From the NCBI GenBank assembly GCA_951640195.1, contig OX621175.1, positions 806,001-870,000 of the forward strand: a DNA stretch of 64,000 bases. The letters are read 5' to 3'. Position 1 is the stretch's first letter. Each line of letters begins with the position of its first letter. Below are positions 56,611 through 59,003 of the stretch, piece after piece. The stretch comes from Porpolomopsis calyptriformis (lineage: Eukaryota; Basidiomycota; Agaricomycetes; Agaricales; Hygrophoraceae). The translations under genes were made by a program, and so were the position numbers. The notes beneath the pieces were generated by a model that ran no database searches, had not been told where the DNA came from, and saw nothing but the letters and a program-made list of their open reading frames with translations.

Positions 56611-56821
56611 TGTCACAACTGTAGTTGCAAGTCTTTTCGTCAATCACAAGGCAGGCCTTGGAGCTTAATAAGTCTAGTAGGATGTAGAAGAAAGTCCTGA
56701 CGGGGACGTCCTCGTAAAGGGTGATGATTCCTTCTGAGTTAAGTTTTACTTCTACAAAGAAGTTGTTCTGCGAGTTAAATCCGTTGCGTGCCTCTGCTGA
56801 GAGTTTAGGGAATATGGGCAT
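56611..56821 (-). CDS. X gag N-terminal frame in LTR copy d
   Basis: ATG 56821, 70 codons to the LTR edge. The sequence (MPIFPKLSAEARNGF...CNYSCD) differs from copies b, c and e at several residues (for example NGFNSQNNFF for NRFNPQQNFL) yet stays open, which suggests past selection on this frame. Confidence 0.6.
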
Positions 56822-56963
56822 GAACGATTGGCTCAGTAGTTATGGGTTTATGTTTCTCTTTTCTTGTTCTGGTGGAAAAGAAGTCTGATGATTCTGATTG
56901 CGTTCGTGCTACTACAAGTAATCTCACAGGAGGATGAAGTGATGATCTGCTTCGCCCTCAGGG

Positions 56964-57280
56964 TTTATATAGTATTTCTAAAATAGGAGTCACTATGAGT
57001 CAGCTTCCGCAGTCACCCCATTTTCTATTGTTCACAGCCTCCGGTTTAAGGTTTGCCATTGTTCTTAGTCATACTGTGGAAGGCTGTGTTGTTTTGATGA
57101 CTCAACTCTATTGGGCATAGCCTTCCGCAGTATCAGGCTGTGCTGTCTCATGACTGGTTCCTATTGTTCTTCTAGTCATGAGATCGCCGCTGTTTCTATC
57201 TCTTGTCCGGCATATCGGGTTTCTCTTCTTTGACTGAGGAACCTCCTTTTGGTCTTCCCTTTGTGTCTGAGCATATAAAA
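56964..57280. promoter_or_regulatory. Divergent promoter region of X-LTR copy d
   Basis: TATAAA on the minus strand (56964-56969) lies about 143 bp before the gag ATG (56821). TATAAAA on the plus strand (57274-57280) lies 50 bp before the antisense gene ATG (57330). The 300 bp between hold CTATTGTTC/GAACAATAG repeats, CCGCAG...CTGCGG-like blocks and a TGAGTCA site near 56997. The equivalent layout is present in all six copies. Confidence 0.65.
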
Positions 57281-57329
57281 GGTGTGGGGTTGTATCCCTA
57301 TGCTTCAGTTCAATCTTTGTCAATTCATC

Positions 57330-58165
57330 ATGACTCCCTCCCACCAAGGCCACTACGTCCGATTCTTCAAGCAGTCTGGAGTGGTGCACCGCACCACTCC
57401 TGTCTTCCTCGATTGTGATTCGTTTCATTACTACCTTCAGCGCATCCCTTCCAACGCCGACCTCTGCTGGTCTTCCTTCTCCTGTTTTGCTTGCGGTGGC
57501 AAGCATAAGGTCAGAAAGTGTCCGTATGTTCGCTGGCCGATCCAGCATGTTTGTGGCTTAATGGAGGATCCGCTTGGTATGTATTTTGTTTTGTCTTTAT
57601 TAGTCTGTGTTTATTGATAATAGGCTTTTTCCCTTTTTAGCTTGGGATGATGACGCCCCTCCCCCTACTTCCCAGCTCCCTTTGGAGGAGCAGGTCAATT
57701 GGGGGTCTGACAAGTGGGCTGACTCTCTTCCTTCCGTCAAGAAGGAGGCAGTTGACTGGGCTGCCAGTCCCCCTTTCCGTCCTTGGATGCCTGGTCCATT
57801 GAGTGTTTTGTCTAGTGGTAACGCTCTCAACTCTCTCGGTCTCTTCGTAGTTGCTGATTTCTTTGCCTTTTTTAGTCGAAGATTTGTCGTTGTCGTTGAC
57901 TAACGTCAACGTCAAGATCGAGGAGGAAGAAGTTCCTCCCAGTTTGTTGTGGAGTCCCACCAATGATTGGTTGGGTGAGGAAGCGAGAAAGATAGCGATG
58001 GGTTTCGTCAAAGGGAAGGCTGCCGAGTTGCAGGCCTCCGGTGGTGACACCAATGGGGCAATTTACTGGGGTAATAAGTTGGCCGCATTAGATGGTCAAG
58101 TAGTCTCGAGTTTCGTAGAGTTCTTGAGGGACAGTATGGTGCAAGAGATTGCCAAGACGGACTAG
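57330..58165 (+). CDS. X-LTR antisense gene, copy d: 3 exons, predicted 237 aa zinc-knuckle-like protein
   Basis: Exon 1 57330-57576, intron 57577-57640 (64 bp, GTATGT...TTTTTAG), exon 2 57641-57817, intron 57818-57875 (58 bp, GTAACG...TTTTTTAG), exon 3 57876-58165; both introns phase 1; spliced length 714 nt. Protein: MTPSHQGHYVRFFKQSG start, a finger CFACGGKHKVRKC (CX2CX3HX4C, one residue shorter than the retroviral knuckle), a Trp-rich middle (AWDDDAPPPTSQ, VNWGSDKWADS, VDWAASPPFRPW), then an acidic, helical exon 3 (KIEEEEVPPSLLWSP, SSFVEFLRDSMVQEIAKTD). It runs antisense to X. Without splicing each frame stops inside an intron, and the exon joins preserve frame exactly. Function unknown; nucleic-acid binding is inferred from the finger. 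Confidence 0.8.
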
Positions 58166-59003
58166 TTTAGATAGTTAGTTGGACATGGACTCCCCCTCTT
58201 TGTACAAATAGTTTCCGCTGCCAATAAAGACAGCCCCCTTTCCAAAGAGAACAGGCAAAGAAAAGAAAAGAACGAAGAAAAGAGAAGAATTTCAAGAGAG
58301 TGAACGCCAATTTCATGACAACTCCATTCTATGCTGCAAGGGGGTATCATCCAAGGATGGCAATCCCTCAGGCCAGAAAATCTGAAGTACCTAGAGCCCA
58401 AAATCTGACTGAGGAAACTAAGAAAGTTCAGGAAGAAATCAAAGCATCAATAAGGCTAGCTCAGGAGACAATGAAAGATTATTATGACCGAGGAACAGCA
58501 GAAGAACATAGGGAAGTATGGGACAAGGTCTGGTTGGATGTGACAAATATCAACACTACTGCTCCCAGCAAGAAACTAGCGGATAAAAGGTTGGGACCCT
58601 TTGTGATAGAAAAGAAACTTTCAAACCAAGTCTACAAATTGAAATTACCAAGGAAATATTGAATACATCCAGTTTTTCATGGAAATCTGCTCAGTACCCA
58701 CGTGGACTCAGAAATAGAGGGAAGGAAATTGGAGGAGCCTGGAGGAATAGAGATTGAGGGAGAGGAGGAGTATGAAGTGGACCAGGTTTTGGACGGGAGA
58801 CTCTGGCGCAACCAAAAACAATATTTGGTACAATGGAAAGGGTATTCAATCTCAGAAAACTCTTGGGAACCAGAAAAGAACCTGGAGAATGCGGCGGAAA
58901 GGATCTCGGAATTTCATGACAAGCATCCTAACTTCAGGTTTGTAAGGAGAAGAGCTTTGGGTCCATCCTCACATAGCTCCAGTGGACTCTAGGAGGGGGG
59001 TAA

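Follow-up and report, generated by a model that had tools for sequence, protein, structure and literature searches.

A candidate spliced gene antisense to gag and pol within the long terminal repeat of a fungal Ty3/gypsy retrotransposon

Can the long terminal repeat (LTR) of a retrotransposon hold a complete gene with introns of its own? The question was raised by a stretch of 64,000 nucleotides (nt) from the fungus Porpolomopsis calyptriformis (contig OX621175.1, positions 806,001 to 870,000; hereafter the window, whose numbering is used throughout unless another locus is named). In six copies of one LTR, an initial annotation of this window had described a gene running opposite to gag and pol and interrupted by two introns. 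Our analysis supports, with a probability of about 0.85, that a chromodomain Ty3/gypsy element carries it as a true accessory gene, lying whole in the predicted U3 region of the LTR and opposite to gag and pol. Judging by its conservation across the family, it is almost certainly a real, selected and spliced gene.

Structure and conservation of the antisense gene

LTR copy d (56611–58320) is a solo LTR, written here so that the antisense gene reads along the plus strand, with the sense strand of the element on the minus strand. It begins with TGTCAC, closes with ATGACA, is flanked by the 5-bp target-site duplication (TSD) ACTCC and sits between LTRs c and e of another element copy. As annotated, three frames join in phase when GT-AG introns of 64 and 58 nt are removed, giving a coding sequence (CDS) of three exons, 714 nt and 237 amino acids (aa) on the plus strand, antisense to gag and pol. 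Exon 1 (57330–57576, plus strand like the parts that follow; 82 codons and 1 nt) carries a CX2CX3HX4C motif and is separated by intron 1 (57577–57640) from exon 2 (57641–57817), which is followed by intron 2 (57818–57875) and by exon 3 (57876–58165) with its TAG stop. Read without splicing, the frame meets stops inside intron 1. A candidate TATA box (TATAAAAG, 57274–57281) lies 56 nt upstream of the ATG, and an AATAAA at 58223–58228, a candidate poly(A) signal, is still within the LTR. All exons lie inside the LTR, and none falls between pol and the 3′ LTR.

The count of six copies holds for the window alone; searches of the genome brought up many more. A DNA search with the LTR gave 42 matches (40 scored of 292 candidates). 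When the 82 aa of exon 1 were used as query, all 150 scored candidates matched (of 269 in all) and 128 of these carried no stop; with exon 3, 150 of 150 scored also matched (of 280 in all). The internal part of a sense open reading frame of the element (ORF1, described below) gave 17 matches, all 17 candidates being scored and two rows representing one locus. Because the exon candidates far outnumbered these internal matches, we estimate from candidate counts that there are about 15 solo LTRs for each element that retains an internal region. The 93 regions fetched yielded 120 BLAST pieces, from which 96 full-length LTR copies were retained after excluding 18 incomplete pieces, the two halves of copy a among them, and 6 duplicates from loci that had been fetched a second time. 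Of these, 53 had been chosen through the exon-1 protein search and 43 through DNA similarity to copy d or from the window, and the c/e subfamily was thinly sampled. All 96 copies differed in sequence. An exact 5-bp TSD flanked 64 of them, and 44 of these 64 had an intact CDS.

Splice sites and phases were conserved across the family, as the annotation required. Intron 1 was bounded by GT-AG in 96/96 copies (lengths 61–66) and intron 2 in 95/96 (lengths 53–58), the 5′ site of intron 1 reading GTATGT in 53, GTGAGT in 39 and GTAAGT in 4. Exon lengths were 247/177/290 in 86 copies; exon 3 was exactly 3 nt shorter in 8, and 2 copies were off frame. Intron lengths varied freely by comparison: their remainders modulo 3 formed all nine possible combinations in the 96 copies and eight of the nine in the 63 with an intact CDS, so the reading frame persists only when the introns are removed. 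Similarly, distinct gap intervals numbered 0.4–0.7 per 100 nt in the exons versus 10.9 and 19.0 in the introns (Fisher P 1.3e-12). The start ATG was present in 90 copies and the TAG stop in all 96; the antisense TATA box read TATAAAAG in 94 and TATAAAAAG in the other two, and AATAAA was found in at least 81, as counted from the six commonest variants listed. Among the other 714-nt copies, 58 of 85 were intact, against 9.5 expected when the same substitutions were placed at random, and a chance origin of the frame is therefore excluded.

Selection on the coding sequence

Diversity at the three codon positions of the antisense gene was 0.068, 0.046 and 0.178, the third being about four times the second. 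The ratio of nonsynonymous to synonymous rates (dN/dS), a check set beforehand, was 0.11–0.19 for pairs with dS above 0.1, and thus not near 1 (NG86 estimates of 0.12–0.19 among the 63 intact copies and 0.11–0.18 among all 96). Among the closest pairs, those with dS below 0.02 (9 pairs of intact copies, 11 of all), it rose to about 0.9. We also compared replacement-to-synonymous ratios (N/S) with the expectation obtained by placing the same substitutions at random in 300 simulations. For 46 independent distant pairs, N/S was 0.30 of random in the true frame, with 0/300 simulations as low, while the two wrong frames gave 1.86 and 2.09. By exon, the distant pairs gave 0.21, 0.51 and 0.21, exon 2 being less constrained than exons 1 and 3. 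In a separate draw, pairs with 15–39 differences showed 0.34 of random. Since pairs share ancestry, distinct shared variants were also counted: among 213, 124 were synonymous, 86 replacement and 3 stop, a synonymous share of 58% compared to the 30% expected (P 1.5e-17).

The two LTRs of one element are identical at insertion, and the differences between them record later change. For the five within-element LTR pairs (those of the elements L014, L036, L040 and L070 and the pair c/e of the window), N/S was 0.84 of random, with 83/300 simulations as low, which is consistent with neutral decay after insertion. Transitions made up 178 of the 185 LTR-pair differences, and 104 were in CpG context, a pattern that suggests decay of inserted copies driven by methylation. 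Because distant pairs were constrained whereas the LTR pairs of single elements were near neutral, the constraint would come mainly from the replicating lineage. These substitution patterns indicate that purifying selection acted on the CDS during replication of the element. Exon 2 occurs in clearly different versions (for example, in copy d versus the copies L036 and L065), with exons 1 and 3 conserved; this suggests either a linker that is free to vary or exchange among lineages.

The element, its protein and other copies in the window

Orientation of the element was read from five full copies (L014, L036, L040, L068 and L070). The polypurine tract GGAGGGGGGTAA or GGGAGGGGGTAA precedes the 3′ LTR, the sequence TTAGGACGAAGT(G/C)TTGG follows the 5′ LTR, and the primer-binding site (PBS) AGGACGAAGTG begins two nt past the LTR. 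On the same sense strand, Pfam placed protease, reverse transcriptase, RNase H, integrase and chromodomain in that order, as read on separate open pieces (protease to integrase in L014, protease to chromodomain in L070). Because polypurine tract, PBS and pol-domain strand together fix the orientation, the gene is antisense to gag and pol, in agreement with the annotation, and by its domains the element is a Ty3/gypsy LTR retrotransposon with a chromodomain. Its pol has relatives in the protein database with up to 64% identity, the named organisms among the best 120 of 5569 matches being Trametes sanguinea and Phellinidium pouzarii. Scans of IMG/VR gave 6 pattern matches for pol and 4 for exon 1, with no relative among them.

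The TATA box of the sense (gag/pol) promoter (TATATAAA, 56964–56971, minus strand) was present in 95/96 copies and stands head-to-head with the antisense TATA box, about 300 bp away. Some 30 nt past it, CACTTC(G/A)TCCT is complementary to the PBS, and TATA spacing puts the predicted start of the sense RNA there (56929–56944, minus strand). The PBS matched the 5′ LTR of its own element over exactly 11 nt in two of six elements (L040 and L068); L014 and L036 had one A-C mismatch, matching exactly only with the 3′ LTR, L070 matched over 10 nt, and the element bounded by c and e needs one G-U pair. The element is thus probably self-primed in the manner of Tf1. The same spacing predicts the border between U3 and R near 56944 (reverse strand), so the whole antisense gene would lie in the predicted U3.

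On the sense strand, the LTR holds the first 70 codons (56611–56821, minus strand) of sense ORF1, a frame of up to 167 aa that does not overlap the antisense gene. This LTR part was open in 88/96 copies. Its N/S was 0.23 of random for distant pairs and 0.48 for the five LTR pairs, with 64/300 simulations as low; on these figures, the LTR part is under purifying selection. The frame crosses the border between LTR and PBS into the internal region, upstream of the gag-like region, and reaches 167 aa in L040 and L068 (1658–2161 in L068). It had no Pfam match.

In the antisense protein, 137 of 237 columns were invariant among the 63 intact copies. Cys52, Cys55, His59 and Cys64 of the CX2CX3HX4C motif were kept in 63, 63, 62 and 63 of the 63, respectively, and His73 and Cys75 in at least 62. 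The zinc knuckle motif of Gag nucleocapsids is CX2CX4HX4C; with its different spacing and no Pfam match, the motif found here was not taken as a zinc knuckle of that type. On the strength of this short motif, which is conserved, the annotation had suggested that the protein may regulate silencing or Gag. Seven sequence matches in the PDB at E values up to 10, the best being 0.021 (a tyrosine phosphatase), were not accepted as real either. A common origin with sense ORF1, both being seemingly beta-beta-alpha-beta, was also rejected (hhalign probability 0.6%, with several of 60 shuffled controls scoring higher).

Of the other LTR copies in the window, copy f (61201–62910, minus strand) is a solo LTR with an intact gene (exons 62191–61945, 61880–61704 and 61645–61356). 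The annotation had likewise described d and f as intact, b, c and e as carrying nonsense changes and a as broken only by the inserted element T2, and we found the same. Copy b (18338–20031, minus strand) has an in-frame stop, as do copies c (37504–39199, minus strand) and e (59004–60700, minus strand), which are the 5′ and 3′ LTRs of the element 37504–60700; in copy c, the 5′ splice site of intron 2 is also changed and the intron begins with AT. Copy a (plus strand) runs from 7204 to 8036, where T2 interrupts exon 1, and resumes at 14953–15832; its exon pieces, translated separately, held no premature stop. The LTRs of T2 lie at 8036–8479 and 14509–14952, and it contains 8629–12963, a stretch related to 12–4331 (about 74% identical). 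An insertion of one copy of the antisense-gene LTR into another copy of the same LTR was seen at L016 (G000:C4:375213-378822).

The window also holds an element at 39918–52481 whose 1033-bp LTRs are 100% identical, by which it is judged very young. It has overlapping long frames of 1686 and 1405 aa and an additional 216-aa frame after pol (50722–51372) without a Pfam match. Searched for unspliced frames only, its LTR at 39918–40950 showed four antisense frames of at least 40 aa, the one lying wholly inside being 42 aa long. Two further LTR pairs in the window measured 444 and 437 bp.

Alternative explanations, known parallels and significance

Several observations weigh against reading the locus as an accessory gene of the element. 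Splicing is deduced from conservation, 33 of the 96 copies are broken, and the sample covers one LTR family in one genome. The exon-1 protein search, which supplied 53 of the 96 copies, favours an open exon 1; intact copies made up 37/53 of those found this way versus 26/43 of those from DNA similarity or the window, and exon 3, which was not a query in that search, was as constrained as exon 1. When copies were clustered at 9% divergence, two large clusters had 40/55 and 22/31 intact copies, and five small clusters had just 1/10. Some constraint still showed among recent changes: pairs with 1–14 differences gave 0.73 of random (18/300 simulations as low), and singletons pointed to mild constraint (39 synonymous, 43 replacement and 6 stop; n=88; P 0.003). 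The neutral test of LTR pairs comprised 95 changes in only five pairs. Pfam contained no family for the antisense protein, and a protein database of 5.8 billion entries, searched by a method needing shared 5-residue words, contained no relative of the whole protein or of the exon-1 frame. It may be that the gene has a restricted distribution, that it evolves fast, or that gene callers unaware of introns have missed it. AlphaFold models were weak for exon 1 alone (pLDDT, the predicted local distance difference test, 63; beta-beta-alpha-beta) and for exon 3 alone (pLDDT 50; helices), and a fold search with the exon-1 model gave no meaningful match (best E 2.7 in PDB and 0.33 in BFVD).

Long open frames opposite coding sequence are common in general, and the frames could owe their existence to chance or to coding constraint on the other strand. 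This explanation is refuted by the excess of intact copies over random expectation, by the N/S of the wrong frames, which is well above random, and by the fact that sense ORF1 does not overlap the antisense gene. An effect of the antisense RNA, and not of a protein, would have the transcript pair with the 3′-terminal U3 of the genomic RNA, tuning expression through double-stranded RNA or interference. By the anatomy, such a transcript is the complement of the U3 part of the genomic RNA, the genome contains matches to Piwi domains and to DNA methylases, and antisense RNAs inhibit Ty1 and may restrict Tf2 (PMC7175516). Pairing of RNA predicts neither constraint by codon phase, nor fixed exon lengths, nor a frame held across introns of every phase, and we regard it as very unlikely as the whole explanation; a direct RNA effect may exist alongside a role of the protein.

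Could the host be keeping the gene, with the solo LTRs as a domesticated family whose product benefits the fungus, perhaps by holding the element in check? The intact CDS in 44 of the 64 copies with an exact TSD and the mild constraint in singletons would suit this idea, and host benefit has a parallel in sag of mouse mammary tumour virus (MMTV) (PMC4667437). Against it, the five LTR pairs look neutral after insertion, which is compatible with selection on a few particular copies, and dN/dS approaches 0.9 in the closest pairs; we hold host use to be very unlikely and consider it likely that the gene works in the replication of the element rather than for the host. As an element gene, it could still encode a protein that restrains its own element, controlling copy number or latency. 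Expression would be possible from every LTR, so the dose would rise with copy number, and a latency-type control of its own element has been proposed for HBZ of human T-cell leukaemia virus type 1 (HTLV-1). Copy-number control of Ty1 depends on a truncated Gag (PMC7175516). Strong constraint at the level of the lineage is easier to explain by a gain to the carrier, and self-restraint seems unlikely, if less so than host use or an effect of RNA.

HBZ is antisense, spliced and begun at an LTR promoter in a retrovirus of people, with its coding region mostly outside the LTR; MMTV sag belongs to a vertebrate retrovirus, has the sense orientation and is not known as an antisense U3 gene with introns of its own. 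The gene described here resembles HBZ in its antisense orientation, apparent splicing and LTR promoter, and differs from it in lying wholly in the LTR; it differs from sag in being antisense, by the positions of polypurine tract and PBS, and in having introns. An antisense promoter in the 3′ LTR is reported for HTLV in PMC7264820. Antisense additional ORFs are also described there for gene23 of maize Grande, rice RIRE2, Silene Retand, bean PvRetro13 and Botrytis Boty; they are internal, placed after pol and before the 3′ LTR, with function given as unknown, and gene23 is driven by a promoter of its own and encodes a nuclear protein (PMC7264820). They resemble the present gene in being antisense to gag and pol, present in most copies and conserved. 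Being internal, they would occur once per element and be absent from solo LTRs, whereas the present gene lies wholly in the LTR, occurs twice per element, is kept by solo LTRs and has two introns. The annotation had called the arrangement unusual, which holds in part. According to PMC4667437, sag lies mostly in U3 and most sag genes surveyed were in solo LTRs, so a coding region in U3 (here predicted) retained by solo LTRs has a precedent. The element itself is similar to self-primed elements of the Tf1 type in its chromodomain Ty3/gypsy pol and in the 10–11 nt near the predicted RNA 5′ end that complement the PBS; the accessible parts of two sources on such elements mention no antisense LTR gene (PMC7175516, PMC4600332). 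An intron-containing antisense gene confined to the LTR or U3 did not turn up in searches of open-licence papers, read as listings and abstract starts. Antisense ORFs and an LTR-borne gene are known separately; as far as these searches reach, it is the combination of antisense orientation, introns and a gene held whole by the LTR that would be new.

How could an accessory gene with introns travel with its element in this way? Genomic RNA carries the complement of antisense introns, which are not spliced out during retrotransposition, and they consequently survive reverse transcription. The U3 of the 3′ LTR founds both daughter LTRs, giving each new copy the gene twice, and recombination between LTRs leaves a solo LTR that, here, potentially remains a complete gene. 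The head-to-head TATA boxes may act as one divergent promoter, in which case an LTR able to make genomic RNA would also be able to make the antisense mRNA: once open, it would send genomic RNA to one side and spliced antisense mRNA to the other. The small Cys/His protein would then act on nucleic acid to the benefit of the element's lineage; its most likely role would be that of a nucleic-acid-binding factor, in the nucleus or the particle, that regulates LTR expression or silencing. We give this regulatory role somewhat less than even odds. A bolder and more tentative version, which we doubt more than we believe, is that U3 has been turned into a self-contained, divergent second gene locus, whose protein is an HBZ-like or anti-silencing regulator needed for replication and which outlives the element in solo LTRs. 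If this were true, well over a hundred copies of the gene, each with its promoter and introns, would be scattered through the fungal genome, and a retroelement route to an intron-bearing gene family without intron loss would exist.

LTRs are usually viewed as regulatory DNA; here, an LTR appears to be a complete, apparently spliced and selected gene. Each transposition adds two copies of it, and the recombination that removes the rest of the element is what preserves it. It would be a clean case of retrotransposition spreading an intron-containing gene intact, as well as a natural experiment that sets selection in the replicating lineage against neutral decay after insertion. These results also suggest that long fungal LTRs are worth searching for antisense spliced genes, which standard annotation may mask as repeats.

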